64,000 nt of DNA, from assembly GCF_001429605.1 (NCBI RefSeq), contig NZ_LMSS01000001.1:433469-497468 (forward strand), written 5' to 3'. The DNA comes from Phycicoccus sp. Soil802. GTDB taxonomy: Bacteria; Actinomycetota; Actinomycetes; Actinomycetales; Dermatophilaceae. The notes beneath the pieces were generated by a model. It was not told the origin of the DNA. It worked only from the letters and a program-made list of their open reading frames with translations, and did not search any database. The position numbers and the translations under genes were made by a program. This document shows, piece after piece, positions 1-57,463 of the stretch (position 1 is its first letter; each line of letters begins with the position of its first letter).

Positions 1-480
1 TTCTACCCGCGCCACGAGTTCTTCTGGGGCACCGTCGTCATCACGCTGTTCGTCTTCTCCGACACCGTCGACGGCGTCATGGCGCGGATGTCCGGCCGGT
101 CCGGCAAGTGGGGCGCCTACCTCGACTCGACCCTCGACCGCGTGGGCGACTCGGCCATCTTCGGCGGGCTCGTGCTCTGGTATGCCGGGAAGGGCGACGA
201 CTTCCTGATGGCCGGTCTGGCGCTGGCCTGCCTCATCCTCGGCAGCGTCGTCTCCTACGCGAAGGCCCGGGCCGAGGGGCTCGGCTTCACCGCCAACGTC
301 GGGATCGCCGAGCGCGCCGACCGCCTCGTGGCGGTCCTCGTGATCACCGGGCTCGTGGGACTGGGGCTGCCCGAGGTCGTCCTCACCATCGTGCTCGCCC
401 TGCTCGCGGTCGCCAGTCTCGTCACCGTCTTCCAGCGGATGCTGCTCGTGCGCCAGCAGGCGCTCGGCCAGACCTCCTGA
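1..480 (+). CDS. pgsA: Phosphatidylinositol phosphate synthase (CDP-alcohol phosphatidyltransferase), 5' end missing
   Basis: The gene enters from the left edge; 159 residues in frame 1 are visible before the TGA. The CDP-alcohol phosphotransferase signature DxxDGxxARx8Gx3Dx3D is complete at about nt 61-138 (DTVDG, MAR, then G, D and D at the right spacing). Several hydrophobic segments follow, as expected for this membrane enzyme, which joins CDP-diacylglycerol to a polar alcohol. The next two genes are patA and pimA, the same trio as in mycobacteria, so the likely acceptor is inositol phosphate, making the precursor of phosphatidylinositol mannosides. The alternative, phosphatidylglycerophosphate synthase, is less likely because a second family member sits at 39.6 kb. 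The start lies outside the window. Confidence 0.88.
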   Translation, partial: FYPRHEFFWGTVVITLFVFSDTVDGVMARMSGRSGKWGAYLDSTLDRVGDSAIFGGLVLWYAGKGDDFLMAGLALACLILGSVVSYAKARAEGLGFTANVGIAERADRLVAVLVITGLVGLGLPEVVLTIVLALLAVASLVTVFQRMLLVRQQALGQTS

Positions 481-493
481 CCGGGCTGGTGTC

Positions 494-1456
494 ATGACCG
501 GGCTGGGCGACCTCCTCGCCGTCAGCGGGTACCGCCTCGGGTGGGGCGCCGTCCGACGGCTCCCCGAGCGCACGGCATACACGGTCTTCGAGCAGCTCGC
601 CGACCTCACCACCGCCCGTGGCGGCAAGGGCGTGCAACGGCTGCGGAGCAACTACGCGAGAGTGCGCCCCGACCTCGACGAGTCCGCGCTCGACAGCCTG
701 GTGCGCGAGGGCATGCGGTCCTACCTGCGCTACTACTGCGAGGCGTTCCGACTGCCCGACCGCAGTGCGGAAGACGTGGCCGCGTCGGTGCGGGTCGAGG
801 GCGACGGGCCGGTGCGAGCCGAGCTCGCCGCCGGGCGCCCCGTCGTGTGCTTCCTCGGTCACCTCGGCAACTGGGACCTCGCCGGCGCCTGGGGCACGAC
901 CGACCTCGCGCCGGTCGTGACCGTCGCCGAGCGCCTCGAGCCCGAGGAGGTGTATGCCGAGTTCCTCGCCTTCCGGGAGTCGCTCGGCATGACGATCCTG
1001 CCGCTGACCGGCGGTGGTGACGTCTTCGCCCAGCTCCGGGGTCACCTGACCAAGCCGGTGCTGATGCCCCTGCTGGCCGACCGCGACCTCACCGACCGCG
1101 GTGTCGAGGTGGACCTGTGCGGTCACCGCTCGAAGATGGCCGCGGGCCCGGCCGCCCTGGCCCTGGCGACGGGTGCGGCCCTGCACCCCGTGTCGATCCA
1201 CTACGAGCGCCTCGACCGGCCGAGCTGGAAGCACCGCACCGTCATCACGTTCCACGACCGCGTCGAGGTGCCGACCACGGGGGCGACCCGCGCGAAGGCG
1301 GTGGCCATGACGCAGCAGTGCGCGGACGCGCTCGGCGCCGCCATCGTCGAGCACACGGCTGACTGGCACATGCTGCAGCGCGTGTTCCTCGACGACCTCA
1401 CGCCGAGCGTCGACGAGTCCCCGCCGGCGGATCGCGTGACCAGGACGTGGCCATGA
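494..1456 (+). CDS. patA: Phosphatidylinositol mannoside acyltransferase PatA
   Basis: The 320-residue protein belongs to the LpxL/HtrB-type acyltransferases. The catalytic HxxxxD motif is seen as GHLGNWD around residues 121-127. PatA acylates the mannose of phosphatidylinositol monomannoside at the inner face of the plasma membrane; here the role is inferred from the family and from its position between pgsA and pimA. The ATG at 494 follows the pgsA stop by 13 nt. The 3' end overlaps the pimA start in an ATGA junction, which suggests translational coupling. Confidence 0.88.
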   Translation: MTGLGDLLAVSGYRLGWGAVRRLPERTAYTVFEQLADLTTARGGKGVQRLRSNYARVRPDLDESALDSLVREGMRSYLRYYCEAFRLPDRSAEDVAASVRVEGDGPVRAELAAGRPVVCFLGHLGNWDLAGAWGTTDLAPVVTVAERLEPEEVYAEFLAFRESLGMTILPLTGGGDVFAQLRGHLTKPVLMPLLADRDLTDRGVEVDLCGHRSKMAAGPAALALATGAALHPVSIHYERLDRPSWKHRTVITFHDRVEVPTTGATRAKAVAMTQQCADALGAAIVEHTADWHMLQRVFLDDLTPSVDESPPADRVTRTWP

Positions 1457-3227: not shown

Positions 3228-3443
3228 GCGCACCCGCGTTCCCGGCCGCGCGGCATACCCGCCTGTCGTCCCGCCACTTCTGGCCACTGGTGCTGCTCCG
3301 CGGCTGCATTCCGGGCCCTGGTGCTGCATGGGTGGCCCGAAGTGCGAGACCGAGCCGGGGTCGGGGGTGCCGTCGGGACCCACTAAACTCGGGTGTGAAG
3401 CGCGTTCCCCGCGCTGCGCCCTGCACATTCTTGGAGTGACCCC
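3228..3443. promoter_or_regulatory. Intergenic region upstream of pdxS
   Basis: 216 bp without a convincing gene. It holds one copy of the dispersed octamer (CGGCATAC, 3251-3258), two direct copies of CTGGTGCTGC (3287-3296 and 3318-3327), and an imperfect inverted repeat (3306-3317 with 3334-3345) that may terminate the pimA operon. A -10-like TAAACT lies at 3384-3389 without a clear -35. A GGAGTG ribosome-binding site precedes the pdxS ATG. Confidence 0.4.
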
Positions 3444-4355: not shown

Positions 4356-4370
4356 CCCACCCCCGACCCG

Positions 4371-4461
4371 CAGCTTTATCGGGTCTGGCAAGAACCTTGA
4401 CCCTCACTCGGCTTCCGAAGTCGAGTGAGGGTCAACCTTGTCCCTTGACCCGATAAAGCTG
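4371..4461. terminator. Nested double inverted repeat between convergent pdxS and kynU
   Basis: Two perfect inverted repeats are nested. Outer arms of 14 bp are CAGCTTTATCGGGT (4371-4384) and its complement (4448-4461). Inner arms of 14 bp are TTGACCCTCACTCG (4397-4410) and its complement (4422-4435), and the 11-nt loop is itself partly self-complementary. Placed exactly between two converging stop codons, it is probably a bidirectional terminator, although there is no proper T-run. Confidence 0.7.
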
Positions 4462-4473
4462 GGCCGGGTGGGG

Positions 4474-5709
4474 TCAGGTGACGGTGCTGCGGGCGCGGAA
4501 CTCGTCGCGCTCGTACTCGCGACCCTCCAGCACCGCCGCGACGTGCTCGGCGGCCGCGACCACGTCGGCGTGCGAGAGGTAGAGCGGGCTGAAGCCCAGC
4601 CGCACGATGTCGACCTCACGGAAGTCGCCGATGACGCCGCGCGCGATGAGCGCCTGCACCACGGCATACGCCTCCGGGTGTCGCAGGCTCACCTGCGAGC
4701 CGCGTCGCGCCCCGTCGCGGGGCGTCGCGAGGGGGAGCTCGACGCCCAGGGCGTCGAGCGCCTCGATGAACAGCCCCGTCAGCGAGAGCGACCGGGCCCG
4801 CACGTCCTCGATCGAGAGCCCGTCGTATGCCGTGAGCGCACCTTCCAGCGTGAGCAGGCTGAGCAGGGGAGCGGTGCCGACCCTGGCGCGGGTGATGCTG
4901 GCCGCGGGGGCGTAGTCGGTGGACATCCCGAACGGGTTGGCGTGGCCCTGCCACCCCGACAGCGGGTTGTCGAACGCGGCCAGGTGCTCGCGCCGGACGT
5001 AGATGAAGGCCGGCGCGCCCGGGCCACCGCTGAGGTACTTGTAGCCGCAGCCCACCGCCAGGTCGGCGCCGCCATCGTCCAGCCCCACCGGCATGGCGCC
5101 CGCGGAGTGGCACAGGTCCCAGCAGACCAGGGCGCCGACGGCGTGGGCGGCCCGGGTGAGGGCGGGTAGGTCCCACTGCTCGCCGGTGCGGTAGTCGACC
5201 TGCGAGTAGGCGGCCAGGGCCAGCGACTCGCCCAGCTCGGCGATCCGGGCCGGCGCCTCCGGGGTCGGCACGAGCTCGAGGGTCAGGCCGAGCAGGTCGC
5301 AGGCCGAGCGGGCGATGTAGACGTCGGTCGGGAACGAGTCCGGGTCGGTCAGCACCGTGCTGCGTCCCGGCCGCATCCGGGACGCGGCGACGATGGTCTT
5401 GAAGAGGTTGACCGAGGTCGAGTCGGTCACGACGACCTGGCCGGGAGCGGCGCCCACGAGCGAGCCGATGCGGTCACCCACGCGCTCGGGCGCACCCCAC
5501 CAGTCGGACTCGTTCCAGGCCCGGATGAGCTGCTCGCCCCACTGCCGCGCCACCACGTCGGCGGCCGTCCGCTCGGCCTCGACCGACAGTGCCCCCAGCG
5601 AGTTGCCGTCGAGGTAGATCACGCCCTCGGGGATGCGGAAGGCGCTGCGTCGGTCAGTGGCTGAGTGCTGCGCGTCGAGGTCGCGAGCGCGGGCGGCGAG
5701 GTCGGTCAT
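4474..5709 (-). CDS. kynU: Kynureninase
   Basis: A 411-residue fold-type I PLP enzyme that cleaves kynurenine to anthranilate and alanine in tryptophan breakdown. Family hallmarks: YLDGNSLG near the N-terminus, TDSTSVNLFK, WDLCHSAGAMP, and the PLP-lysine segment GCGYKYLSGGPG. Length is typical. The ATG at 5709 is preceded, reading on the minus strand, by TAGGTT (5716-5721) with a 6-nt gap and no ribosome-binding site, which suggests a leaderless message. No other kynurenine-pathway gene is in the window, so it may serve anthranilate salvage. It lies among genes inserted between pdxS and pdxT; it uses PLP, but a link is only inference. Confidence 0.93.
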   Translation of the reverse strand: MTDLAARARDLDAQHSATDRRSAFRIPEGVIYLDGNSLGALSVEAERTAADVVARQWGEQLIRAWNESDWWGAPERVGDRIGSLVGAAPGQVVVTDSTSVNLFKTIVAASRMRPGRSTVLTDPDSFPTDVYIARSACDLLGLTLELVPTPEAPARIAELGESLALAAYSQVDYRTGEQWDLPALTRAAHAVGALVCWDLCHSAGAMPVGLDDGGADLAVGCGYKYLSGGPGAPAFIYVRREHLAAFDNPLSGWQGHANPFGMSTDYAPAASITRARVGTAPLLSLLTLEGALTAYDGLSIEDVRARSLSLTGLFIEALDALGVELPLATPRDGARRGSQVSLRHPEAYAVVQALIARGVIGDFREVDIVRLGFSPLYLSHADVVAAAEHVAAVLEGREYERDEFRARSTVT

Positions 5710-5806: not shown

Positions 5807-7345
5807 ATGGCGGGCGCACTCACCATCGAGGAGCTGGAGCGCGAGGCCGACCAGGCCTGGTGGCGCGGCGACGGCGCCGCGTCGATGGCCGCGTCCGAGG
5901 AGGTCTACCGACGACGGGTGGATGCCGGTGACCCGGCGGGTGCCGCCCACCAGGCGCTCACGCTCACTCTCGAGTGGGTGACCCGCGGAGACATCGAGGT
6001 CGCCTCCGGCTGGCTCAACCGGGCCCGCAAGCTGCTCGCCGGCCTGGCCCCGTCCGCCGACCACGGCTACCTCGCCTATCTCGAGGCGACCATCGCGATG
6101 GACGCCGAGGGTGACTCCGGGCCGGCCCACGAGGCCGCCGCCATGCTGTCCAGCATGGCCGCGGCGTTCGACGACCCAGCGCTGGCCTGCTTCGCCCTCG
6201 TGCTGTCCGGGGTCGCGGCGGTGCGGGACGGGCACCCGAGGGAGGGCTTCGGCGACCTCGACGAGGCGATGCTCCCGGTGCTGGCCGGCCAGGTGCCCGC
6301 GCTCTGGTCCGGGGACATCTACTGCTCGGTGATCCACCTCTGCGAGGGCCTCGGTGACCTGGCCCGGGTGCGAGCCTGGACCGATGCGCTGGAACGCTGG
6401 GCGATCCCCCAGTCCCAGACCTTCATGTATGCAGGGGTGACCAGGATCCACCAGCTCCAGCTGATCGCCGCGGAGGGCGGCTGGGACGTCGTGGAGAGCG
6501 AGCTGGGGCAGCGCAGCGAGGGACTGATCGGGTCGCACGGCTGGCTCGCCGGTGCCGGGTACCACGAGCTCGGTGAGGTGCGACGGCTGCGTGGCCAGGT
6601 CGGCCCGGCGAGGGAGGCCTTCGACGCGGCACTCGCGCTGGGGGTCGACCCCCAGCCGGGCCTGGCGCTCCTGGCCCGCGCTGCCTCCGGTCCGTCGGCG
6701 GGACTGGCCTCCCTCCGGGCCAGCCTCGGTCAGCGCGGCCGACTCGAGCGCGCCCGCCTGCTCCCCGCGGCGGTGGGGCTGGCCCTGGAGGCCGGCGACG
6801 CGGCATACGCCCACTCGCTCGCCGAGGAGGCCGAGGCCACGGCCGAGCGCTACGGCACCCCTGGCATGCTGGCCGGGGCGGCCCGCGCGCGGGCCTCGGT
6901 GCTCCTGGCCGAGTCGCGTCCGGAGGAGGCGGTCCCGCACCTCGAGCTCGCGGCCCAGGTCTACCGCGACCAGCGCTACCGCTACGCGAGCGCCCAGGTC
7001 CACGAAGGGCTCGCGGAAGCACACCGGCTGCTCGGCCGTGACACCGCGGCCCGCGCCGAGCTCGCCTGCGCCCACGAGATCTACCGCCAGCTGGGCGCGG
7101 TGACCGACCTCGCGCGGTTGTCGCCGCCGACGCTGCCCGCCGGGCTCACGCCGCGCGAGGCCGAGGTGCTGGCCTGCGTCGCCTCCGGGGCGAGCAACCG
7201 CGAGGTGGCCAGGGCGCTGTTCATCAGCGACAAGACGGTCGGTCGGCACCTGGCGAACATCTACCTCAAGGCCGGGGTGAGCTCCCGCACCGCCGCCGCC
7301 GCGTGGGCTCGGACCCACGGCATCGCCACCCGCGAGCCGGTCTGA
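5807..7345 (+). CDS. TPR-like LuxR-family transcriptional regulator
   Basis: About 512 residues. The C-terminus (about residues 445-505) is a LuxR/GerE helix-turn-helix: [18 protein letters not shown], then [22 protein letters not shown]. The long N-terminal part is alanine-rich and helical, resembling degenerate tetratricopeptide repeats, with no P-loop, so it is a LuxR protein without the ATPase domain of the LAL type. I choose ATG 5807 over GTG 5801 because GGGAGG lies just upstream. The next gene on the same strand is a SAM methyltransferase, a probable target. The ligand is unknown. Confidence 0.8.
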
Positions 7346-7363
7346 CCCTGGACGAACGCTGGG

Positions 7364-9208: not shown

Positions 9209-9817
9209 GTGACCGACCAGCCCACCATCGGAGTGCTCGCCGTCCAGGGTGACGTGCGAGAGCACCTGTATGCCGTGGAGCAGGCGGGCGCGCGCGCCAC
9301 CACCGTGCGTCGCACGACCGAGCTCGACGGGGTCGACGCCCTCATCATCCCGGGGGGCGAGTCGACCACCATGGACAAGCTGGTCCGGGCCTTCGAGCTG
9401 CGCGACCCGCTGCGTGAGCGGCTGGGAGCGGGCATGCCGGCCTACGGCTCCTGCGCGGGCATGATCATGCTCGCCGACCGGATCGCCGACGCGCGTCCCG
9501 ACCAGCAGACCCTCGGGGGGCTGGACATCACGGTGCGGCGCAACGCGTTCGGGCGGCAGGTCGACTCCTTCGAGGAGGACCTGCACATCCGCGCCATCGG
9601 CGGCGCTCCCATGCGTGCCGTGTTCATCCGCGCGCCATGGGTCGAGGAGGTGGGGGAGGGCGTCGACGTGTTGGCCCGCGTCGAGGACGGACCCGCCGCA
9701 GGTAGGATCGTCGCCGTTCGTCAGGGGTCGCTGATGGCCACCTCCTTCCACCCGGAAGTGACCGGTGACCACCGGTTCCACCAGTTGTTCGTCGAGATCG
9801 TGAGAGGCAAGGCATGA
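9209..9817 (+). CDS. pdxT: Pyridoxal 5'-phosphate synthase, glutaminase subunit PdxT
   Basis: A 202-residue class I glutamine amidotransferase that hydrolyses glutamine and channels ammonia to PdxS. The motif GGESTT, the nucleophile in GSCAGM (Cys at about 82) and the FHPE catalytic His/Glu pair are all present. GTG 9209 gives the family-typical start ([14 protein letters not shown]). TAGCAT (9196-9201) ends 7 nt before it with no ribosome-binding site, suggesting a leaderless promoter independent of pdxS. It overlaps yebC by 4 nt (ATGA). Confidence 0.95.
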
Positions 9818-13056: not shown

Positions 13057-13086
13057 TTGGTCGGTATGCCGTGCGTCACCTACACT
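13057..13086 (+). promoter_or_regulatory. Candidate promoter of the yajC-secD-secF-apt-rel operon
   Basis: TTGGTC (13057-13062) and TACACT (13081-13086) are separated by 18 bp, a good sigma-70-type match. The spacer contains a copy of the dispersed octamer GTATGCCG (13064-13071). Transcription from here leaves an untranslated leader of about 85 nt before yajC. Confidence 0.55.
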
Positions 13087-13536: not shown

Positions 13537-15324
13537 GTGGCAATCAACCCGTACAACCGCAAGCCGCTGAAGATCCTGTCAGCGCTGGCGGCCGTCACCC
13601 TCGGCCTCTACGGCCTCCTCTTCGCCGCGACCACCTGGGGTGACGCGCAATGGGCACCCAAGCTGGGGCTCGACCTCGACGGCGGCACGCAGCTGGTGCT
13701 CAAGCCGGTGCTCGTCGGGGCGAACAAGGTCACCAACGAGCAGCTGAGCCAGGCCCGCGACATCATCGTGCAGCGGGTCGACGCCAACGGTGTCGCCGGC
13801 GCCGAGGTGACCACGCGCAACAGCGAGGACATCGTGGTCAGCGTGCCGGGCAAGAGCCTCGACAAGACCACCGAGGACGCGATCCGCAAGTCCTCGCAGA
13901 TGCGGTTCCGCCCGGTGCTGGCCACCGCCCCGGGCACCAACCAGCCGGTGCCCACCGGGACCTCGACCGGCACCGCGACCGGGACGGCCACCGGCACCGC
14001 GACCGGGACGGCGACCGGCACGGTGCCCAAGGCGACCGGCACGGCCACCACGGCCGGCTCCGGGGTGCCCGGTGCATTCGTCAAGAGCACCACCGAGCCG
14101 ACGGGGTCCGCCACCGCCACCGGTAGCAGCACGACGGCACCGACCGGCTCGACGGCCAAGCCGGCCAACTCCAGTGACCTCGCCTGGATCACCGACGACA
14201 TCTCCAAGGCCTACCAGGCGCTCGACTGCTCGGTCCCCGGTGTGACCGACAAGATCGTCGATGACCCCGCGAAGCCCCTCGTGACCTGCAGCGACGACGG
14301 GGCCGAGAAGTACGTGCTCGGCCCGGTGGTCGTCAACGGCGACCAGATCGCCGACGCCGCCGCCGGTTACCGACCGCTGTCCAACGGGCAGCCGTCCAGC
14401 ACCGTCGAGATCAGCCTGACCTTCAAGTCCTCCGGCACCAAGGCCTACGGCGAGGCCAGCAAGCGGATGGTCTCGCTCGAGTCGCCGCGCAACCAGATGG
14501 CCGCCACCCTCGACTCGCGCGTCATCGTCGCGCCGTACTTCGAGGCGGCCATCCTCGACGGACGGGCCAGCATCTCGGGCTCGTTCACGATCGAGTCGGC
14601 CCGCGACCTCGCCAGCCAGCTGAAGTTCGGCGCCCTCCCACTGTCCTTCACGCTGCAGACCCGCGACCAGATCAGCCCCACGCTCGGCAGCGAGCAGCTC
14701 CGGATGGGCCTCATCGCGGGCATCATCGGCTTCGCGCTGGTGTTCCTCTACTCGCTCGCGCAGTACCGCGCCCTGGGCCTGGTCACCGTCGCGTCGATCA
14801 TCATCGCGGCGTTGCTGACCTATGTCGCGATCGCCATCCTGGGGTGGTCGCACAACTTCCGCCTCGACATGGCGGGGGTGACCGGCCTGATCGTGGCCAT
14901 CGGTGTGACCGCCGACTCGTTCATCGTCTACTTCGAACGCATCCGGGACGAGGTCCGCGAAGGACGGCCACTGCGGGCAGCCGTCGACACCGGTTGGCGC
15001 CGGGCCCGGCGCACCATCCTGGCCGCTGACGGGGTGAACTTCCTGGCCGCCTTCGTGCTCTACCTGCTGGCGTCGTCGAACGTGCGCGGGTTCGCCTTCA
15101 CGCTCGGCCTCACCACGCTCATCGACCTGCTCATCGTGGTGCTCTTCACCCACCCGCTCGTCGCCCTGCTGGCGGGCACGAAGTTCTTCGGTGGCGGACA
15201 CCGGTGGTCGGGTCTCGACCCCGAGCGTCTCGGCGCCAAGGCCCAGAAGCCCCGGTATGCCGGGCGCGGACGGGTCGCGATGCCCACCAACGCACGGACC
15301 GCGAGCGACGGGAGCGCGCTGTGA
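13537..15324 (+). CDS. secD: Protein translocase subunit SecD
   Basis: 595 residues; a membrane component that uses the proton gradient to assist export. The N-terminal transmembrane segment is followed by the signature GLDLDGGTQLVL (about residue 42), the large extracytoplasmic P1 domain, and five C-terminal helices with LRMGLIAGIIGFALVFLY and the conserved ADSFIVYFERIRDEVREG. P1 is interrupted at about residues 140-210 by a Thr/Gly/Ser/Ala-rich insert with TGTA tetrads. GTG start. It overlaps secF by 4 nt (GTGA). Confidence 0.96.
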   Translation: MAINPYNRKPLKILSALAAVTLGLYGLLFAATTWGDAQWAPKLGLDLDGGTQLVLKPVLVGANKVTNEQLSQARDIIVQRVDANGVAGAEVTTRNSEDIVVSVPGKSLDKTTEDAIRKSSQMRFRPVLATAPGTNQPVPTGTSTGTATGTATGTATGTATGTVPKATGTATTAGSGVPGAFVKSTTEPTGSATATGSSTTAPTGSTAKPANSSDLAWITDDISKAYQALDCSVPGVTDKIVDDPAKPLVTCSDDGAEKYVLGPVVVNGDQIADAAAGYRPLSNGQPSSTVEISLTFKSSGTKAYGEASKRMVSLESPRNQMAATLDSRVIVAPYFEAAILDGRASISGSFTIESARDLASQLKFGALPLSFTLQTRDQISPTLGSEQLRMGLIAGIIGFALVFLYSLAQYRALGLVTVASIIIAALLTYVAIAILGWSHNFRLDMAGVTGLIVAIGVTADSFIVYFERIRDEVREGRPLRAAVDTGWRRARRTILAADGVNFLAAFVLYLLASSNVRGFAFTLGLTTLIDLLIVVLFTHPLVALLAGTKFFGGGHRWSGLDPERLGAKAQKPRYAGRGRVAMPTNARTASDGSAL

Positions 15325-17038: not shown

Positions 17039-19348
17039 ATGACTGAGGACGTCGTCACCGGGCCGGTGCCCACCGGTGCGTCCTCGGCGAACCGCGTCCG
17101 CGCCCGACTGGCCAGGTTCGGCAGTCGCGGGGGCCCGACCAACCCGGTCCTCGAGCCGTTGCTCCAGACCGTGCGGGCCACCCATCCCAAGGCCGACCTG
17201 ACCGTCATCGAGCGGGCCTACGTCGTCGCCGAGGAGGCCCACCGCGGCCAGAAGCGCAAGTCCGGTGACGCCTACATCACCCACCCGCTGGCGGTCACGA
17301 CGATCCTCGCCGAGCTGGGCATGACGCCGGCCACGCTGGCAGCGGCGCTGCTGCACGACACGGTGGAGGACACGGCATACAGCCTCACGCAGCTCGAGAA
17401 GGACTTCGGGCGCGAGGTCGCGATGCTGGTCGACGGCGTCACCAAGCTCGACAAGGTGACCTACGGCGACGCGGCGCAGGCCGAGACGGTCCGCAAGATG
17501 GTCGTCGCCATGGCGCGCGACATCCGCGTCCTCGTCATCAAGCTCGCCGACCGCCTCCACAACGCCCGCACCTGGCGCTACGTCTCGGTCGAGTCCGCCC
17601 AGCGCAAGGCCCGCGAGACCCTCGAGATCTACGCCCCCCTGGCCCACCGGCTCGGCATGAACACCATCAAGTGGGAGCTCGAGGACCTGTCGTTCGCGAC
17701 GCTCTACCCGAAGGTCTACGACGAGATCGTCCGCCTCGTGGCCGAGCGCGCGCCGGCCCGTGAGGAGTTCCTGTCGGGGGTGCGCGAGCAGGTCAGCGAG
17801 GACCTCAAGGGCGCCAAGATCAAGGCGACGGTCACCGGCCGCCCCAAGCACTACTACTCCGTCTACCAGAAGATGATCGTGCGCGGCCGCGACTTCGAGG
17901 ACATCTACGACCTCGTCGCGGTCCGCGTGCTGGTCGACTCGGTGCGCGACTGCTACGCCGCGCTCGGTGCCCTGCACGCGCGGTGGAACCCCCTGCCCGG
18001 GCGGTTCAAGGACTACATCGCGATGCCGAAGTTCAACATGTACCAGTCGTTGCACACGACGGTCATCGGGCCCGAGGGCAAGGCCGTCGAGATCCAGATC
18101 CGCACGCACACGATGCACCGCAGGGCGGAGTACGGCGTCGCCGCGCACTGGAAGTACAAGGAGGACGGCACCGCGCCGAGCGCCAGCACCAAGGAAGGCG
18201 AGACCGGCCCCATCAACGACATGGCGTGGCTCCGCCAGCTGCTCGACTGGCAGAAGGAGACCGCCGACCCGGGGGAGTTCCTCGACTCGCTGCGGTTCGA
18301 GATCAACGCCCGCGAGGTCTACGTCTTCACCCCCAAGGGTGAGGTCGTGGCGCTGCCGGCCGGGGCGACGCCCGTCGACTTCGCCTATGCCGTGCACACC
18401 GAGGTCGGGCACCACTGCATCGGCGGCCGCGTCAACGGTCGCCTGGTCCCGCTGGAGTCCACCCTCGAGAACGGCGACGTCGTCGAGGTCCTCACCTCCA
18501 AGGCCGACGGCGCTGGCCCGTCCCGCGACTGGCTCACCTTCGTCAAGTCGCCGCGGGCCCGCAACAAGATCAAGCAGTGGTTCTCCAAGGAGCGCCGCGA
18601 GGAGGCGATCGAGACCGGCAAGGACGCGATCGCCCGCGCCATGCGCAAGGAGGGCCTCCCGCTCCAGCGGCTGCTCACCGTCGAGACCCTGACCGGGCTC
18701 GCCTCCGAGCTGCGCTACCAGGACATCGACGCCCTGTATGCCGCGGTGGGCGAGGGGCACGTGTCCGCCCAGCACGTGGTGGGCCGGCTCGTGGCCTCCC
18801 TGGGTGGCGAGGAGGGCGCGTCCGAGGACCTCGCCGAGGCGACCACCCCGACCCGGTCGATGCGCCGTCGCTCGGGCGACCCGGGCGTGGTCGTGGTCGG
18901 CACCGCTGACGTGTGGGTCAAGCTCGCGCGCTGCTGCACGCCCGTGCCCGGCGACCCGATCATGGGTTTCATCACCCGTGGCAACGGCGTGTCAGTCCAC
19001 CGGACCGACTGCACCAACGCGGAGTCGCTGCTCTCGCAACCGGATCGGATGATCGAGGTCGAGTGGGCGCCGTCGTCGGCGTCGGTCTTCCTCGTGCAGC
19101 TCCAGGTCGAGGCGCTCGACCGCAACCGCTTGCTCTCGGACGTCACTCGGGTGCTGTCCGACCAGCACGTCAACATCCTGTCGGCGTCGGTGCAGACGTC
19201 GCGCGACCGCGTCGCGATCAGCAAGTTCACCTTCGAGATGGGCGACCCCAGCCACCTCGAGCACGTCATGAAGGCGGTCCGCAAGATCGACGGCGTCTTC
19301 GACGTCTACCGGATCACCGGCACCAAGGCCACGGCCGCGAAGGCCTAG
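17039..19348 (+). CDS. rel: Bifunctional (p)ppGpp synthetase/hydrolase Rel
   Basis: 769 residues, the normal long Rel. Domains in order: HD hydrolase ([11 protein letters not shown], about residue 105), synthetase (region of YYSVYQKM to [16 protein letters not shown]), TGS ([19 protein letters not shown], about 425), zinc-finger-like CCTPVPGD (about 640), and C-terminal ACT ([20 protein letters not shown]). The intact HD predicts both synthesis and breakdown of the alarmone. It starts 9 nt after apt. The 45-bp gap to the converging DUF349 gene contains two direct copies of the dispersed octamer. Confidence 0.97.
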
Positions 19349-19393
19349 CCGAACGGCATACCCCGCCTCGACGCGGCATACGAAAGCCGTTGT

Positions 19394-36203: not shown

Positions 36204-36240
36204 GCACGGCATACCGATTTCAAGCGGAGGTATGCCGTGC
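36204..36240. terminator. Perfect 12-bp hairpin made of two inverted octamers
   Basis: GCACGGCATACC (36204-36215) and GGTATGCCGTGC (36229-36240) pair perfectly around a 13-nt loop, 6 nt after the der stop. Each arm contains the dispersed octamer (36207-36214 and 36230-36237). Position suggests termination of der, but there is no T-run. Confidence 0.7.
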
Positions 36241-37924: not shown

Positions 37925-37958
37925 GCCCCACACTGTGGCACGCGGCATACTCGGGCGC

Positions 37959-40203: not shown

Positions 40204-41183
40204 CCACGCCACACACCTCACACCGCGACGCCGGCCCGCCGTCCACCCCGCCGGGCCGCCGGCCCGACGAGTCGATGACGCTGCTCATCTCGATGATGGA
40301 GCGCCCCCTGGACCCGGGGTATGCCGCGGCCGCAGCCGAGCGCGAAGCCGCCGGCCTGCCGCCCAGCACCGGCACCCGCACCGTGACCGTCGCCGTGGCA
40401 GCCGTCGTCGCGGGCCTCCTGCTCACCCTCGGGGCGCTCGCCCTGCGCACCCCCTCGACCTCGGCCATCCGGGCGAAGGCCAACCTGGTCAGCCAGATCG
40501 AGAGTCGCCGGGCCGCGGTGGACCGGCAGGAGGCGCAGCTGCGTGCGGTGCAGGCCGAGGTGGACCGCCTGCAGGCGCAGGCGCTGGGCCAGGACGAGAC
40601 GTCGCTCCAGACCCGGCTCGCGGCGCTCACCCTCGCCTCCGGAGCCGAGAAGGTGTCCGGTCCCGGCATCACGGTCGTGCTCGACAACGCCCCCGGCAGC
40701 GACGGCACCAGCGCCGACGGCAACCCGCGCACCGACGCGGACAAGGACGAGGGCAAGGTCTTCTCCAAGGACCTGCAGGTCGTCGTCAACGGGCTCTGGG
40801 AGGCCGGTGCCGAGGCGATCGCGGTGAACGGCCAGCGCCTGACGTCGAGGTCGGCCATCCGGTTCGCGGGTGAGGCCATCCTCGTCAACTACCGACCGCT
40901 GGCCAGGCCCTACCGGATCAGCGTCATCGGCGACCCCGAGGACCTGCAGGTCGAGTTCGCCGCCAACGACGGGGGCGCCTACGCACGTGCCCTGCAGGAC
41001 AACTACGGCATCCGTGTTTCCATTGACGCGGCCAAGAGCCTGTCGCTGCCCGCGGCGACCTCGCTCACGGTCCGCGAGGCCATGGTGCCCAAGCCGAAGA
41101 CCAGCGCGCCGGCCACCACCGGCACCACCACCCCGTCCACCACCCCGTCCACCACATCGTCCACGTCGGAGAGTTCACCGTGA
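40200..41183 (+). CDS. DUF881 family membrane protein (first of two)
   Basis: 327 residues. A cytoplasmic Pro-rich start, one transmembrane helix (about residues 61-82), a coiled-coil stretch (about 95-130, ESRRAAVDRQEAQLRAVQAE), then the DUF881 domain with GPGITVVLDNAP and LWEAGAEAIAVNGQRL. The tail is a Thr/Ser/Pro linker. DUF881 proteins flank Sbp in Actinobacteria and occur near division genes in Firmicutes, hinting at an envelope role. ATGA overlap upstream, GTGA downstream. Confidence 0.88.
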   Translation: MTTPHTSHRDAGPPSTPPGRRPDESMTLLISMMERPLDPGYAAAAAEREAAGLPPSTGTRTVTVAVAAVVAGLLLTLGALALRTPSTSAIRAKANLVSQIESRRAAVDRQEAQLRAVQAEVDRLQAQALGQDETSLQTRLAALTLASGAEKVSGPGITVVLDNAPGSDGTSADGNPRTDADKDEGKVFSKDLQVVVNGLWEAGAEAIAVNGQRLTSRSAIRFAGEAILVNYRPLARPYRISVIGDPEDLQVEFAANDGGAYARALQDNYGIRVSIDAAKSLSLPAATSLTVREAMVPKPKTSAPATTGTTTPSTTPSTTSSTSESSP

Positions 41184-42359: not shown

Positions 42360-42749
42360 ATGAGCGAGCTGGACTACCCGCAGGACCTGCGTTACACGGC
42401 CGAGCACGAGTGGGTCCGGTCCGGTGACGACGGCACGGTGCGGATCGGGATCACCTCGTTCGCCCAGGACTCCCTGGGCGACGTCGTCTACGTCAGCCTC
42501 CCCGCGGTTGGCGACACCGTGTCCGCGGGCGACGCCTGCGGCGAGGTCGAGTCGACCAAGTCCGTGAGCGACCTCTACGCCCCCCTCTCCGGCGAGGTGA
42601 CGGCCGTCAACGAGTCGCTCGACGCCACTCCCGAGCTCGTCAACACCGACCCGTACGGCGAGGGCTGGATGTACGAGCTGCGTCCCGCTGACGCCGCGGC
42701 CGTCGAGGCCCTGCTCGACCCGGCGGCATACCAGGCCCAGCTCGGCTGA
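42360..42749 (+). CDS. gcvH: Glycine cleavage system H protein
   Basis: 129 residues. The lipoyl-carrier core is clear: YTAEHEWVRSGDDGTVRIG, then GDVVYVSLPAVGDTV and GEVESTKSVSDLYAPLSG with the lipoylated Lys. It carries the aminomethyl group between the P, T and L proteins. GAGGAG precedes ATG 42360. The P protein gene lies 3 kb downstream beyond three regulators; gcvT is not in the window. Confidence 0.96.
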   Translation: MSELDYPQDLRYTAEHEWVRSGDDGTVRIGITSFAQDSLGDVVYVSLPAVGDTVSAGDACGEVESTKSVSDLYAPLSGEVTAVNESLDATPELVNTDPYGEGWMYELRPADAAAVEALLDPAAYQAQLG

Positions 42750-43327: not shown

Positions 43328-44056
43328 GTGAGCCCTCGCACGACGCCGCAGTCCATGACGATCGGTGCGGTGCTCGCTGCCCTGACGACGGACTTCCCGG
43401 ACGTCACCATCTCCAAGATCCGCTTCCTCGAGGCGGAGGGACTGGTGACGCCGGCCCGCACCGGCTCGGGCTACCGCACCTACTCCGGCGCTGACCTCGA
43501 CCGGCTCCGCTACATCCTCACCGCCCAGCGCGACCACTTCTGGCCGCTCAAGGTGATCGCGTCGGCCCTCGACGCCATGGACCGTGGGCTGACCCCCGAG
43601 CGCCACGAGTCCGGTATGCCGCGGCCGTCGGTCCCGGCGCCGGTCACCGACCCCGAGGTGCCCACCGCTGCCGAGGTCACCCGCGGCGGGACGTTGCGGC
43701 TGACCAAGGCCGAGCTGGCCGCTTCGGCCGGCCTCGACGCCGGCACGGTGGACGCCCTGGAGACCTTCGGGCTCCTGCACGCCGACGCCACCGGGCACTT
43801 CGGTGACGCCGCGCTGACGGTGGCGCACACCGCCGCCGAGCTCGCGGCATACGGGCTCGAGCCGCGACACCTGCGGCCGTTCCGCACCGCGGCAGACCGC
43901 GAGATCGGCCTCGTCCAGCAGGTCGTCACGCCGCACCGCCCGACGTCTGGCAAGGGCGCCCGCGCAGGTCAGCCGAAGGATCCGACCGGTGACGTGCTGC
44001 GGCTGTGCATCGCGTTGCACACCGCCCTCGTGAGGGACGGGCTCCAGCGCGGCTGA
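43328..44056 (+). CDS. ftsR: MerR-family regulator, FtsR-like
   Basis: 242 residues. The N-terminal MerR winged helix is SMTIGAVLAALTTDFPDVTISKIRFLE ... SGYRTYSGADLDRLRYIL, without the metal-binding cysteines of classical MerR. The C-terminal half (LRLTKAELAASAGLDAGTVDALE) is a second helical domain. The position behind garA equals FtsR of corynebacteria and Rv1828 of mycobacteria, which act on division-related promoters; the name rests on that synteny. GTG 43328 follows the garA stop by 14 nt. Confidence 0.82.
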   Translation: MSPRTTPQSMTIGAVLAALTTDFPDVTISKIRFLEAEGLVTPARTGSGYRTYSGADLDRLRYILTAQRDHFWPLKVIASALDAMDRGLTPERHESGMPRPSVPAPVTDPEVPTAAEVTRGGTLRLTKAELAASAGLDAGTVDALETFGLLHADATGHFGDAALTVAHTAAELAAYGLEPRHLRPFRTAADREIGLVQQVVTPHRPTSGKGARAGQPKDPTGDVLRLCIALHTALVRDGLQRG

Positions 44057-45635: not shown

Positions 45636-48518
<2,883 letters not shown>

Positions 48519-48520
48519 GG

Positions 48521-51500
48521 TCAGGCCGCGGGGGCGGACTCGCCGATGCTGGTCTCGAAGGTGCTGGTCACCTGCACCGACGAGCCGCGCTCGGTCTTGC
48601 GGACCACGACCTGGCTCGGGATCCGGGTGCGCAGCTCGGCGACGTGGCTGACCACCCCGACGGCCCGTCCGCCCTCGCGGAGGTCGTCGAGCACGGCCAT
48701 GACCTGCTCGAGGCTCTCGTCGTCGAGGGTGCCGAAACCCTCGTCGACGAACAGGGTCTGCAGGTCGAAGCCACCGGCCTCCTCGCGGACGGCGTCGGCG
48801 AGCCCCAGCGCGAGGGCGAGCGAGGCCATGAACGACTCGCCGCCGGACAAGGACGTCGTCGCCCTCGCCTGACCGGTCCACAGGTCGATGACCTCGAGGC
48901 CCAGACCGCTGCGGGCGCCGCGGGCGGCCAGCCCGTCGGTGTGGCGGAGCTGGTAGCGACCCTCACCCATGTGGGAGAGCCGCTCGTTGGCCAACGTCGC
49001 GACCTTCTCGAGCCGCGCGGCCAGCACGAACGCGGACAGGCGCATCCGCAGCTCGTTGCTCGGGCTCGTGCCGGCGACCGTGTCGGCGAGCTCGCGGATG
49101 ACCCGGTGGTGCGCCTCTGCTTCGGTGATGCGCCCGCACCGGGCACTGATGCTGCCGCGGACGCGGTCGAGGCCGCTGATCGTGCGGCGCACCAGGGTGT
49201 CAGCGGCCACGGCAGCCGTGTGGGCGACGTGGGCGGCCTCGCGGGCGGCGGCCAGGCCCGCGAGGTCCACGTCGGCGGACTCGAGCGCCTTCTGGACCTC
49301 GGGCTCGGCCAGCGTGGTGCGGGCCACCACGGCCGCTTCGTCGTGGGCCGCGACGGCCGCACGGAGCCGGGCCACCTCGGCGAGCGGGAGCTGTCCGGCC
49401 CTGGCCTCCGCGGGGCCCGGAAAGCCTGCGGTGCGGAAGGAGTCGTCGGTCGCGGCGACCACCGTGGTCGCGTCACGCTCGGCGCGCTCGAGCTCACCGA
49501 CCGCGGCGGCGTGGGCCGCGGCGGCCATGACAGCCTGGGCGTGGCGGGCGCTGGTGGCGGACAACCGGTCGGGATCTCGGAGCTGCACCGCGTCCGAGCT
49601 GTCCGGCGCGTCGCGGATGCCGGTCTCGGCGCACGGACAGTGCTCAGCGTGCTCGCCGAGCGCCTCGGTCAGGTCGGCGCGGTCGATCTCCAGCTGGCGA
49701 CCGACGTCCTCGACCCGCGAGGCGAGCGTCGCGCAGGTCTGGCGGTCCTCCACGAGCGTGGTCGTCAGTGCCTCGACGGACGCAGTCAGGGTGGTCACCC
49801 GGCGGCGCGCCCGGTCCACGCCGCGCGCGCCCGCGGTGGCCTCGTCGAGGCGCTGGCGGGCCTGCGCGACGGCCGCTTCGAGGGCGACCTGGTCGCCCGA
49901 CTCGTCGCCGAGCTGCTCGCGGAGCTGGACCAGGGTGGCCGCGAGGGCCGCTGCGGAGCGTTCGATCGCCGCCAGCTCCTCCGCGGCCCGCTGCCACGCG
50001 GCCTCCGCCTCGGAGACCTGCTCCGCCGTGACCAGGTCGGTCGAGGAGGCGAGGTGGGGGTGGTCCTGGGCGCCGCAGACCGGGCACGGCTGGTCGTCCT
50101 CGAGCCGGCTGGCCAGCTCGCCGGCCATGGCGTCGAGTCGAGCCTGGCGGCGGTCCTGGTAGAGGTCGCGCAGGTCCTGGGTCGTGGTGCGTTGCGCGGC
50201 CAGCGCGGTGTGGCAGGCCGTCTCGCGGTCGAGTGCCTGGTCGAGGCTGCGGCGGGCAGCGAGCAGCGCACCGGCGCGCTCCAGTCGGGTCGTCGAGGAC
50301 TCCAGCTGCGCCGCGCCCTGCTCTGCGGCGGTCAAGGCGGTCGTCGCCTCGACCAGCTCCGTCCGCACCACGGCCAGACGCTCGGTGGACTGTGCGACGC
50401 TGCGGGTCGCGGTGGCCAGCTCGCCCTCGAGCAGCCTGGCAACCTGCTCCCGCTCGTGCACCGCTGACTGGGTGCGCTGCGCGGTCGCCAACGCCTCGGC
50501 GCCGGCGTCGAGCCGCCCGATGACCGCTTCGACGGCGGTCGAGCCGCGCCCGTCGAGGGCCCACCGGGCAACGTCGGGCCGGGTCGCGTCCATCCGGCCC
50601 CGTGCCGTCTGCAGGGCTGTGGTCACCCGGTCGAGGGCCTTGAGGTCACCTGCGACCGAGGCCGCGCGCTCGGCCAGCTCGATCCGGGCCGCGGCGGCGT
50701 CGCGGCGCTCGGCCCCGGCCTCGAGGGCAGACACGGCTGCCCGTGCGGCGAGTCCGCGCGACCGCCGGGCGACGGTCTCCTGGGCCAGGGCATGGGCCGT
50801 CGAGGCGGCTTCGTCAGCCAGGCGCGTCGCGTCGACCGCGGCCAGCCGAGCGGTGGATCCCTCGTCGAGCGCCTGCCGGGCCGCATCGAGGGCCGCCGGG
50901 AGCTCGTCGAGCGGCAGGTCGGACCAGTCGCGGGACCCGTCGCCGAGGTCGGGGGCATCGGCCAGCACGTCGGCGAGGACCGCCAGCTCGGCGTTGAGGG
51001 AGGCGCGCTCGTCAGCCACGAGGGCGGCAGTTTCCTTGCGCTGCAAGGCAAACCAGTCCTCGAGACCCGCGAACGACGACACGTCGAACAGCCGTTCAAG
51101 CAGCGACCGGCGCTCCTCGGGGGTGGCACGCAGGAAGGCGGCGAAGTCGCCCTGGGGGAGGAGCACGACCTTGCTGAACTGCTCGAGACCCATGCCGAGC
51201 ACGTCCTTGACGACCTCGGCGATCTCGTCGTGACGGGTGCTCAGGGCCGCCCACTCGGTGCCACGTCGCTCCCAGAGCACCGCCCTGGCATGCACCTTGG
51301 TCTCTCCCTTGCCCCGGGCCCTGGGACGCAGGAACTCCGGCGAACGCTCGATCTTCAGGCGGCGCCCACTGGCGGTGAACTCGAGGCTCACCGACGGGAC
51401 GGCCCCTCGCTCTGCGTGGTCGCTGTGCAGCTGCTTCTTCGAGCGAGCGCCGGGGACGTCGGCATACAGGGCGAACGCCACGGCGTCGAGCAGGCTGGTC

Positions 51501-54421: not shown

Positions 54422-54453
54422 CACCGGCCGTCGGTCGTGTCGGCGCGGCGCGC

Positions 54454-54488
54454 TACCCTGTCAGTACACCTTGACGCCCTTGACGCCC
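54454..54488. promoter_or_regulatory. Candidate promoter/operator of the toxin-antitoxin pair
   Basis: A -10-like TACCCT (54454-54459) is followed by GTCA...TGAC (in 54460-54474) and an exact tandem repeat of TTGACGCCC (54471-54479 and 54480-54488). The short dyad and repeat between promoter and antitoxin gene fit an autoregulatory operator; the assignment is inference. Confidence 0.4.
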
Positions 54489-54544
54489 CCGAGGTCGCAG
54501 TGGCCGCGAGCAGCGGGGCGCGAGGCGGACCGGCAGGAGGACTG

Positions 54545-55090: not shown

Positions 55091-55728
55091 CGGGCCGCGA
55101 GCGGACCGCCCTCGGTCCGCCGCCCGCCTCCGTGGCCGGCTTCCCGGCATACTCCGTCGACGAGGGCACCGACCTGTTCCGCGCCCACGGGCGCGGCCTG
55201 GGCCCGTGGTGGTTCGGGAACGACGGGACCGGTCGGTTCGACCTCCGGACGCCGCGGGGCACCTGCTACTTCGCGCTCGACCCGTTGAGTGCGTTGCGCG
55301 AGAGGCTGGGCCCGGTCCTCGGCGGCTCGCAGGCGGTCCCCGAGAGCCTGCTCGAGGAGTCGGTGGTCTCGCGCTTGCGGCTGTCCGCGGCGCGCGACGT
55401 CGCCAACACCCAGGACCGCGGTGCGGCAGTGTTCGGGGTGACCCGCGAGCTCGAGTCGACCGTGCCGTATGCCGTGCCGCAGGCCTGGGCGCGCGCCTTC
55501 GACGAGGCGGGGTTCGGGGGAGTGCGCTACGGCCCGCGGTTCACGCCGGGCGACTCGAGCGCACTGGCGCTGTTCGACGCCGAGGGAGCTGCGGACTGGC
55601 CGGTCGACCCCGATCCCGTTCCGGCGCAGCAGGTTCCGGGCGCTCCCGCGGCCCTGCCGAACCCTCGACGCAGCGACCTCACCGTGGTGCGACCGCCGCG
55701 CACGCGCGCCGTCCGCGAGGGCAGCTAG
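55087..55728 (+). CDS. RES-domain toxin (NAD-targeting ADP-ribosyltransferase/phosphorylase fold)
   Basis: 213 residues. LFRAHGRGLGPWWFGNDGTGRFD, TPRGTCYFALDPLSALRERLG and AWARAFDEAGFGGVRYGPRFTPGDSS carry the conserved Arg, Glu and Ser of the RES family. Known members (MbcT, ParT, Res) consume NAD or modify a nucleotide-metabolism enzyme, stalling growth. GTG 55087 overlaps the antitoxin stop (GTGA). It ends in a CTAG shared with the stop of the converging ABC gene. Two octamers lie within it. Confidence 0.85.
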   Translation: MTGRERTALGPPPASVAGFPAYSVDEGTDLFRAHGRGLGPWWFGNDGTGRFDLRTPRGTCYFALDPLSALRERLGPVLGGSQAVPESLLEESVVSRLRLSAARDVANTQDRGAAVFGVTRELESTVPYAVPQAWARAFDEAGFGGVRYGPRFTPGDSSALALFDAEGAADWPVDPDPVPAQQVPGAPAALPNPRRSDLTVVRPPRTRAVREGS

Positions 55729-56693
55729 CCGGTGGCAAGGCCGTCGACGGCAAGGTTGTCGGCCTCCTCGGCCCGGTGACAGGCGACCTCGCGACCGTCG
55801 TAGGGGCGCAGCACCGGCGCCTCGGTCCGGCACCGGGCCACCGCCAGGGGGCAGCGGTCGACGTAAGCGCAGGCCGACGCCGCGCGGGCTCGCTCGGGGG
55901 CCCCCGAGCTGACGCGGGTCAGGGGGATGCGCTGGACGCCCAGCTCGGGGACCGCGGCCCGCAGGGCGCGGGTGTACGGGTGTCGCGGACTCGTGAGCAC
56001 CCTGGCCGTGGGACCGCGCTCCATGACGACCCCGCCGTAGAGCACCACGCTGGTCTCGCACAGCCGGTCCACCACCGCGAGGTTGTGCGAGATCAGCAGG
56101 TACGCCAGCCCCCGCTGCTCACGCAGCCGCTCGACCAGGGCGAGCACCCGGTCCTGAACGGTCACGTCGAGGGCGCTGGTCGGCTCGTCCAGGATGAGGA
56201 GCCGTGGCTCGAGAGCCAGTGCGCGAGCGATGAGCACCCGCTGGCGCTGCCCTCCGGAGAGCTGGTGCCGGTAGTGCGTCATGACCTCCTCGGGAAGACC
56301 CACCTCGGCAAGCAGGGAGGCTGCTCGCTCCTGTCGCGCGCTGCGTGGGACGCTGCGGTGCACGGCCAGCGGCTCCACGACCTGCGCGAGCACCGGCATC
56401 CGCGGGTCGAGGGCGCCGTCACCGTCCTGGAAGACGATCTGCACCTCACGGCGATACCTGGCGAGGTCACGTCCTCGGAGGGCGAGGACGTCGCGGCCGT
56501 CGAACGTCACCGAGCCTGCGCTGGCCCGGTGGAGCCGGACGAGGGTGCGGGCGATGGTGGTCTTCCCCGACCCGGACTCGCCGATCAGCCCGACGCCGTA
56601 GGGACCGACCGGCACGTCGAGGTCGACGCCGTGGACCACGGGGGTCTGCCCGTACGCGATCCGGAGCCCCTCCACGGACAGCAGCGCGCTCAT
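55725..56693 (-). CDS. Peptide/nickel-type ABC transporter ATP-binding protein (DppF-like)
   Basis: 322 residues. Walker A GESGSGKTTIAR, signature LSGGQRQRVLIARAL, Walker B LLILDEPTSALD and the switch His in LLISHNLAVV. The C-terminus has the four-Cys-like oligopeptide domain pattern (CAYVDRCPLAVARC, then CHR), typical of DppF/OppF. Last gene of the minus-strand operon. It overlaps the preceding ATPase gene by 4 nt (ATGA). Confidence 0.9.
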   Translation of the reverse strand: MSALLSVEGLRIAYGQTPVVHGVDLDVPVGPYGVGLIGESGSGKTTIARTLVRLHRASAGSVTFDGRDVLALRGRDLARYRREVQIVFQDGDGALDPRMPVLAQVVEPLAVHRSVPRSARQERAASLLAEVGLPEEVMTHYRHQLSGGQRQRVLIARALALEPRLLILDEPTSALDVTVQDRVLALVERLREQRGLAYLLISHNLAVVDRLCETSVVLYGGVVMERGPTARVLTSPRHPYTRALRAAVPELGVQRIPLTRVSSGAPERARAASACAYVDRCPLAVARCRTEAPVLRPYDGREVACHRAEEADNLAVDGLATG

Positions 56694-57463
56694 GTCGTCC
56701 TCCGTCCACCGATGACCGGGACTGCCGCCAACAGCTCGGCGGTGTAGGCAGCCTGCGGATCGTGCAGCACCTGGGCCGTGGGGCCGCTCTCCACGACCTG
56801 TCCCCGCCGCATCACGATCACGGCGTCGGCGAGCTCGCCGATCACGGCCAGGTCGTGCGAGATGAACATCAGGGCAGTTCCGTGCACGTCCCTGAGCCGA
56901 CGCAGCACCTCGATGACCTCCGCCTGGACGGTGACGTCCAGGGCGCTGGTCGGCTCGTCCGCGATGACGACCTTCGCGCGAAGGGCCGACACGATGGCGA
57001 TGGCGAAGCGCTGCGCCTGCCCACCGGACACCTGGTGGGGGTAGCGGCCCAGGATCGCGGGGCTGAGCACCACCTCCTCCAGCGCGGCGCTCATGCGTGC
57101 CGCCACCTCGCGGCGCGGCACGCCGTGCAGGCGCAGCGTCCGGGCGAACACCGTGCCCAGCCGCATCGTGGGGTTGAGTGCGGCCCGGGGGCTCTGCATG
57201 ATCATGGCGACCCTGCGACCGCGGATCTGCCGCCACTGCCGTTCCGACTTCCCGAGCAGCTCCTCGCCGTCCAGCGTGATGCTGCCGCTGACCGTGGCAC
57301 CGGCATACCGGCTCAGGCCCATGACGGCCAGCGCGGTCTGCGACTTGCCCGACCCGCTCTCGCCCGCGACACCGGTCACCGAGCCGGGCTCCAGGTCGAG
57401 CTCGGGGACGTGGGCGACGGTGCGGTCGCCGTACTCGACCCGCAGGTCCCTGATCCGGATCAT
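56690..57463 (-). CDS. Peptide/nickel-type ABC transporter ATP-binding protein (DppD/NikD-like)
   Basis: 257 residues. Walker A GESGSGKSQTALAVMG, signature VSGGQAQRFAIAIV, Walker B VVIADEPTSALD, switch FISHDLAVI. It is shorter than usual DppD (about 330) because it ends soon after the core without the C-terminal oligopeptide extension, as in NikD. Overlaps both neighbours by 4 nt. The most right-hand dispersed octamer (57301-57308) lies in it. Confidence 0.9.
   Translation of the reverse strand: MIRIRDLRVEYGDRTVAHVPELDLEPGSVTGVAGESGSGKSQTALAVMGLSRYAGATVSGSITLDGEELLGKSERQWRQIRGRRVAMIMQSPRAALNPTMRLGTVFARTLRLHGVPRREVAARMSAALEEVVLSPAILGRYPHQVSGGQAQRFAIAIVSALRAKVVIADEPTSALDVTVQAEVIEVLRRLRDVHGTALMFISHDLAVIGELADAVIVMRRGQVVESGPTAQVLHDPQAAYTAELLAAVPVIGGRRTT

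Follow-up and report, generated by a model that had tools for sequence, protein, structure and literature searches.

A densely repeated octamer of Knoellia and its relatives as a candidate directional tag for self-DNA

The 64,000-nucleotide stretch of Phycicoccus sp. Soil802 analyzed here (assembly GCF_001429605.1, contig NZ_LMSS01000001.1, positions 433,469 to 497,468; hereafter the window) carries 37 exact copies of the octamer GTATGCCG, 19 on the plus strand and 18 on the minus strand, between positions 180 and 57308. On comparative sequence evidence, we consider the chances evenly balanced that in this Gram-positive actinobacterial family the word is a directional tag for self-DNA, working like the DNA uptake sequences (DUS) of Neisseriaceae and the Pasteurellaceae uptake signal sequences (USS). 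The fuller proposal is more tentative, namely that this is the first Gram-positive uptake-word system, family-wide with one-base dialects, in which copies are read one way and the two orientations form two sets of entry or exchange sites, each regularly spaced and independent of the other. RelA from the window and its counterpart in Knoellia koreensis (L015) share 95% identity, and by sequence the window genome is a Knoellia (Actinomycetota; Intrasporangiaceae by NCBI; Dermatophilaceae in GTDB).

Within the window, 37 of 38 GTATGC hexamers continue with CG, the sole exception lying at 6427, and 25 of the 37 copies continue further with YG. Dinucleotide shuffles of the window (n = 100) gave a mean of 0.83 copies and a maximum of 3. 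The strand counts, the single exception, and the YG continuation in two-thirds of copies had been reported in an initial annotation of the window and were all reproduced. Across the genome (4.29 Mb, nine contigs), GTATGCCG occurs 2,241 times, 1,143 on the plus and 1,098 on the minus strand, compared with 51 occurrences (25 and 26 by strand) of the reversed word, which served as a control. The count against a Markov background that the initial annotation had proposed gave 224 copies in a 464-kb sample of the same genome versus 9.9 expected under an order-3 model, and the top of the 8-mer lists consists of GTATGCCG and its overlapping shifts. The ten other genomes of the genus hold 625-3,986 copies each.

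The coding context of the word was examined in genes that were called crudely, from GC content by codon position and the first start codon. Tyrosine in the context G-Tyr-GCC-G (hyphens marking codon boundaries) is written TAT 83 times and TAC 23 times, whereas elsewhere TAT occurs 92 times and TAC 2,083 times (Fisher p 3e-80); 83 of all 175 TAT codons lie inside the word. By the same gene calls, 62 of the 224 copies in the 464-kb sample are intergenic. The earlier claim that the word is not a codon-bias effect is borne out by the TAT:TAC ratios, and the accompanying statement that more than one reading frame is used is true with a qualification, as two frames (Tyr-Ala in sense, Ala-Tyr in antisense) hold 123 of the 158 coding copies in that sample. 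Flank preferences are alike in every frame and between genes, with Y at +8, G at +9 (0.72-0.82), and G at +12 (0.54-0.72). They yield a weaker, one-sided extended consensus, (G)GTATGCCGYGnnG, which beyond codon periodicity is all that the flanks have in common. Because the same flank bases recur in all frames and in intergenic DNA, they point to a protein that contacts about 13 bp as the reader. Overall, the count lies far above the Markov expectation and is not accounted for by codon usage, so neither of the two objections that the initial annotation raised against itself holds. Irrespective of the reader, the over-representation of GTATGCCG is real, as are its dialects and spacing.

The orientation of the copies is even at large scale and structured at short range. 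Of the 210 sites in 444 kb of contig C1, 106 lie on the plus strand and 104 on the minus strand. Strand use was also assessed on 43 pieces, with 852 sites in all, taken from genomes labelled T; such labels (T, C, GG, and so on), covering 66 genomes, were assigned by hand from counts with no formal threshold. Chi2 came to 16.1, which is more even than chance, or to 12.7 on 35 pieces when eight orthologous sister windows were set aside. None of 2,000 simulations was as even as 16.1 at a polarity of 0.55, 0.60, 0.65, or 0.75. These values argue against a replication skew like that of Chi or of FtsK orienting polar sequences (KOPS) in the pieces tested, although a slight polarity remains compatible with the data because local alternation lowers chi2. 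The earlier argument from equal strand use against a replication-polarized motif of the Chi or KOPS type thus holds. What it missed is that orientation matters locally. Neighbors at least 100 bp apart tend to alternate, with 161 opposite and 66 same-orientation pairs in the genome itself and 143 and 87, respectively, in other genera. Among pairs at 100-1000 bp, 15 share an orientation and 66 are opposed, with 57.9 expected for each; in other genera the counts are 45 same and 85 opposite, with 89.5 expected. As controls, we used 400 of the 511 8-mers that have 120-400 copies, and none was as low in same-orientation pairs (mean ratio 1.11, minimum 0.44). The same-strand repulsion ends at about 1-1.5 kb, and the coefficient of variation of the gaps is 0.61 and 0.64 on the individual strands versus 0.78 over all gaps. 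Within single predicted genes, 28 neighboring pairs are opposite and 7 are the same, so gene direction is not the cause. Since sites of the same orientation avoid one another and those of opposite orientation do not, each copy is probably read directionally.

Retention of the 37 window sites was scored wherever they could be aligned in each of ten sister genomes. The exact word is kept at 28/31 sites in G006, 27/31 in G004, 25/29 in G005, and 25/28 in G002 (86-90%), and at 22/33 in G003, 19/28 in G008, and 18/27 in G001 (67-68%). Control 8-mers 20-150 bp away are kept at 22-40% and composition-matched 8-mers at 30-45%; in the four genomes with the highest retention, where nearby 8-mers are kept at 28-40%, the excess for the word has p below 1e-8 in each case. 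The commonest single change is T to C at position 4 (25 of 50 cells, which are not independent events). This change is synonymous in both main frames and so by itself is no evidence.

One-base variants replace or accompany GTATGCCG elsewhere in the family. Among 58 genomes counted, GTATGCCG is near the control level in all 22 from other families and in 10 of 25 from other genera of the same family. When GTAYGCCG was counted in 59 family genomes, G033 proved to have 2,216 GTACGCCG and 55 GTATGCCG among 2,271 matches, and G034 to have 1,359 and 71, respectively, among 1,430. Within the genus, GTACGCCG is raised in G009 (1,011) and G010 (865) relative to the other nine genomes (203-474). A k-mer scan on pieces of 66 genomes, with candidates recounted in fresh sequence, added the dialects GGATGCCG, GAATGCCG, and GTATGVCG. 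GGATGCCG reached 48 versus 5.6 expected in a fresh 40 kb of G058, which has no GTATGCCG, and 15 versus 2.1 in fresh sequence of G026. In a fresh 40 kb of G022, GAATGCCG occurs 28 times versus 1.9 expected, alongside 10 GTATGCCG versus 0.8. Fresh sequence of G013 and G059 holds 9 and 5 copies of GTATGACG and 7 and 8 of GTATGGCG, respectively, each against 0.5-1.0 expected and alongside GTATGCCG. Replicated changes fall at positions 2, 4, and 6; G1, A3, G5, C7, and G8 are invariant. GTACGACG in G085 is a weak case (9 versus 1.5 in fresh sequence), and GTATGCGG was dropped as a dialect of G030 since it was not clearly repeated (2 versus 0.3). A quick RelA tree was built with 71 rows (66 from the family and 5 outgroups); it leaves many forks open and has some long branches. 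On it, genomes labelled T cluster (15 changes versus 23.8 when shuffled), as do those labelled none (8 versus 15.6), with none of 500 shuffles as low in either case; the GTATGVCG pair also clusters (1 change; 5 of 500 shuffles as low). The counts and the tree suggest that the family has had the word for a long time, with repeated dialect changes and losses.

Copies of the word also form inverted pairs. Pairs of the form GTATGCCG-N(0-30)-CGGCATAC number 79 in the genome of the window versus about 9 expected, and 517 in the 11 genomes of the genus versus about 100, with 155 pairs of the opposite arrangement; the expectations assume independent placement and were worked out by hand from word counts and rounded genome sizes. 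Nine pairs were folded and gave -22.0 to -44.7 kcal/mol, most of them as near-perfect hairpins with differing inner stems. Six of the seven hairpin pairs in the 464-kb sample lie 3-177 bp past a predicted stop codon and one lies in a predicted gene; no clear T tract was seen in the bases inspected with the folds. One cluster of four hairpin pairs falls within 11 kb (G000:C1:67367-78777), and three of these are 15-22 bp past a predicted stop. In the window, an inverted pair at 36207..36237 separates a gene putatively named der in the initial annotation from tRNA-Pro, its left arm being the minus-strand copy at 36207..36214 and its right arm the plus-strand copy at 36230..36237. The hairpin reported there does fold (-22.3 kcal/mol), although the pair is of the less enriched arrangement, and it is also present in G002, G003, G004, G005, G006, and G009. 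Paired re-use of uptake words as terminators is described for Neisseria (PMC2397512) and Haemophilus (PMC7811141).

One region of the genome, a defense and mobile island with lowered GC, is poor in the word. The first 60 kb of contig C1 (G000:C1:1-60000, loci L137-L139) hold 7 copies of GTATGCCG versus 32.2 expected, and the word-free gaps have a GC content of 0.63-0.66. Nine proteins of this island were scanned, four of them without a match; its genes include BrxL, a split N6-methylase-like gene that we take to be PglX-like, a Mu-type transposase, and a Type ISP restriction enzyme. In the window itself, stretches that align in no more than one relative carry 4 sites in 11.5 kb, or 0.35 per kb, versus 0.62 per kb where nine or ten relatives align.

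The genome has genes of an apparatus that would make DNA uptake possible. Those for ComEA (SLBB and helix-hairpin-helix) and ComEC are found together at C4:411.8-415.3 kb. On contig C5, a first tad locus encodes three short Flp-like pilins, CpaB, a CpaE-like ATPase, CpaF, and a T2SSF protein, with Flp_Fap matched in both of the Flp-like pilins scanned. A second tad locus on C5 encodes a TadA-type ATPase, two TadE-like proteins, and one TadE/G-like protein, and a third ATPase of this kind is found on C2. All 11 genomes of the genus have ComEC and Tad-type ATPases. Transformation of Micrococcus luteus needs two tad loci, one of the flp type and one with TadE/TadF-like pilins, and comEA and comEC were also tested there (PMC4322843); the present genome resembles it in having an Flp-type tad locus, a TadE/TadG-type tad locus, ComEA, and ComEC. 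That paper contains neither "sequence specific" nor "DNA uptake sequence". The open literature searched gave no report on competence of Knoellia among the matches listed.

Several candidate correlates of the word within this apparatus were rejected. Type IVa PilT passes the cut-off in 1 of the 59 family genomes, and one more has strong fragments of it, so it does not track the word. The idea that genomes lost the word by losing their uptake machinery is unsupported, given ComEC in 56 of the 59 and ComEC with Tad ATPases throughout the genus. A further candidate was a ComEA module, since local alignments extended further in 9 of 11 word-bearing genomes and in 0 of 6 word-free ones.

We infer the DNA-receptor reader, the biased uptake, the import direction, and the drive alike, in the following account. 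The word would be bound by a putative receptor for DNA that belongs to the competence machinery (Tad/Flp pilus, ComEA, ComEC), and fragments bearing it would be imported and recombined more often, so that copies would spread and would be restored by biased transformation between relatives. As the specificity of the receptor drifted, the genomic word would follow, giving one-base dialects. If reading is directional, each copy would serve the DNA on one side only; a second copy of the same orientation within about 1-1.5 kb would then be redundant, and an opposite copy would not.

The DUS of Neisseriaceae, read by the receptor ComP, offer a close parallel. They occur in thousands of copies with dialects a few bases apart, and five genomes of that family have no obvious DUS (PMC3630211); they are strongly conserved, form inverted pairs that act as terminators, and are absent from recently acquired genes (PMC2397512). 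Copy number, dialects, word-free family genomes, conservation, and inverted pairs are alike here, whereas the Gram-positive host, the lack of a detected type IVa PilT, the word itself, and the same-strand repulsion are not. For the USS of Pasteurellaceae, close oppositely oriented pairs serve as terminators (PMC7811141), and an even spacing described by Karlin is cited in a paper that disputes strong evenness (PMC1939737). USS differ from the present word in sequence, in their type IV pilus system, and in an uptake reported to be independent of orientation (PMC1939737). The interpretation given in the initial annotation is partly supported. For the comparison with DUS and USS speak the genome-wide density of the word, its retention in most sister genomes, its one-base dialects, the inverted pairs close to gene ends, the absence of replication polarity, and one island where the word is scarce. 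Nothing was encountered in favor of the nucleoid-protein or methylation site that the initial annotation also considered, in an analysis that did not address either directly. The comparison with DUS and USS fits less well in that orientation seems to matter and PilT was not found in this genome, so we do not file the word as a DUS or USS even though it may work like one.

Several results weigh against a directional uptake tag. Seven genomes with other dialects show only weak repulsion (66 same-orientation and 78 opposite pairs, 82.2 expected), and flanking identity has no convincing one-sided signal. Same-strand repulsion does not follow from the uptake reported for Haemophilus influenzae, which is blind to orientation (PMC1939737). 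ComEA and ComEC, for which the initial annotation proposed to look, are present together with Tad loci, but they do not discriminate: ComEC occurs in family genomes with or without the word, a ComEA match was found at 17 of 17 loci examined in both kinds of genome, and the ComEA alignment difference comes down to the membrane segment and its divergence, so that no module tracks the word. The apparatus therefore makes uptake possible and leaves the pattern unexplained. PilT (TIGR01420) falls below the cut-off in this genome, in a type IVa search that covered PilT and did not extend to minor pilins. G005 keeps its 25 of 29 sites though its ComEC is split over two frames (G005:C1:1517076-1517881), which may be a sequencing or assembly error or a recent loss. 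Conservation is at background (28-41%) in the three genomes with the fewest copies of GTATGCCG in the genus, G007 (11/27 sites), G009 (8/29), and G010 (8/27), despite their ComEC and Tad-type ATPases. Sequence left unaligned from one species to another shows no consistent deficit of the word, which leaves the C1 island as the single clear case of depletion. The 49 kb of phage TJE1 contain 2 copies against about 1.5 at random by a hand estimate, which says little. On the quick RelA tree, the labels C (4 rows, 4 changes), GG (3, 3), and T/C mix (5, 5) are unclustered, with 500 of 500 shuffles as low, so these dialects are no marks of clades there.

A Chi-like signal is likewise read unidirectionally and for that reason is the most serious rival; at it, a resection enzyme of the AddAB, RecBCD, or AdnAB type would read one strand, stop degrading, and load RecA. 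With each orientation serving a single side of a break, a regular supply would be needed on both strands separately, as the orientation-specific spacing and the lower per-strand variation of gaps would suggest; the eight-base core that Chi shares, variants at the level of genera, scarcity in the island, and conservation are compatible as well. Known Chi sites are skewed with replication. No such skew was seen for the word (106/210 sites on the plus strand; chi2 16.1, with the position of the origin not located), and it forms hairpins near gene ends, 517 where about 100 are expected; terminator-like hairpins are not known for Chi. We therefore regard this explanation as unlikely, though well worth keeping in view. 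KOPS differ from the word in that it shows no strong skew toward the terminus by the same two measures.

Less probable again is an iterated word with a chromosomal role in organization, repair, or methylation-linked processes that has nothing to do with DNA exchange. Highly iterated palindrome 1 (HIP1) of cyanobacteria is an abundant, dispersed palindromic octamer of debated function, and GTATGCCG resembles it in being highly iterated, kept in place, and found both in genes and between them. Unlike HIP1, GTATGCCG is asymmetric with a one-sided extension, its presence, form, and absence vary among genera, and same-strand repulsion has no obvious place in such a role. That the word is a methyltransferase target kept because it is modified strikes us as very improbable. 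BREX- and ISP-type genes occur in the same genome, and nonpalindromic targets are typical of Type I, III, BREX, and ISP enzymes. These genes sit in the island that nearly lacks the word, however, the GTACGCCG form turns an A of the lower strand into G, and a site is not known to multiply through modification alone. A codon, dipeptide, or mutational bias, or a tiny mobile repeat family, could be read into the concentration of coding copies in two frames, yet we give it almost no credence: the TAT:TAC ratios reverse in the context of the word, more than a quarter of the sampled copies are intergenic, the weak extension is the only flank in common, and control words show neither conservation nor same-strand repulsion.

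The exact copies in the window not placed above can be given by strand. Plus-strand copies lie at 180..187, 952..959, 4825..4832, 9268..9275, 13064..13071 (in a putative promoter spacer according to the initial annotation, and exact in 9 of 10 sister genomes by alignment), 15255..15262, 18736..18743 (within relA and likewise exact in 9 of 10), 25996..26003, 26689..26696, 28643..28650, 31226..31233, 32713..32720, 32962..32969, 39059..39066, 40319..40326, 43614..43621, 46697..46704, and 55467..55474. Those on the minus strand are at 573..580, 3251..3258, 4662..4669, 6801..6808, 17373..17380 (within the relA frame), 19354..19361, 19374..19381, 22538..22545, 25942..25949, 28183..28190, 33504..33511, 37943..37950 (over a putative -10 element according to the initial annotation), 42724..42731, 43845..43852, 51460..51467, 55145..55152, and 57301..57308. 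The copies at 3251, 31226, 55467, and 57301 are intergenic by the crude gene calls. Those at 19354 and 19374 are also intergenic and share an orientation across a gap of 12 bp.

Some further repeats and positional patterns came to light. Antisense coding copies are frequent early in genes, 24 of 58 lying in the first fifth of predicted genes in the sample of the window's genome; this may be an artefact of crude start codons, and a similar early concentration is described for the reverse-complement USS in Pasteurellaceae (PMC2346458). In Knoellia pieces (for example, L121-L124 of G010), CGGGGGAG and ACTCCCCC(G) are also enriched, with 21 versus 3.8 expected in 64 kb of G010. Flexivirga meconopsidis (L019 and L258, which overlap on one contig) has repeated AAACGGTT, TAAGTCGA, and GTGCATAA with counts of 7-8 each, probably a single local repeat array present in both loci. 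In Pengzhenrongella frigida (L034), AGTCGACT and TCAGTCGA each count 12 versus 0.5-0.6 expected in 22 kb when both strands are counted, and are perhaps an inverted-repeat element.

According to PMC12616744, DNA uptake specific for self is known from Neisseriaceae and Pasteurellaceae only, and PMC12153270 describes the uptake of DNA by monoderms as lacking sequence specificity. No report of an uptake word in Actinobacteria was found among the matches listed in the open-access literature, which lacks most subscription papers. Should the proposal of a directional self-DNA tag be correct, this would be a further case of an uptake word, actinobacterial, with a different pilus and with dialects, and it would provide a new system in which to address the question of drive versus selection. 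As a quantitative clue to mechanism, the same-strand repulsion suggests that the word is read directionally across some 1-1.5 kb, and such repulsion can be checked for in Haemophilus, in Neisseria, and at Chi.

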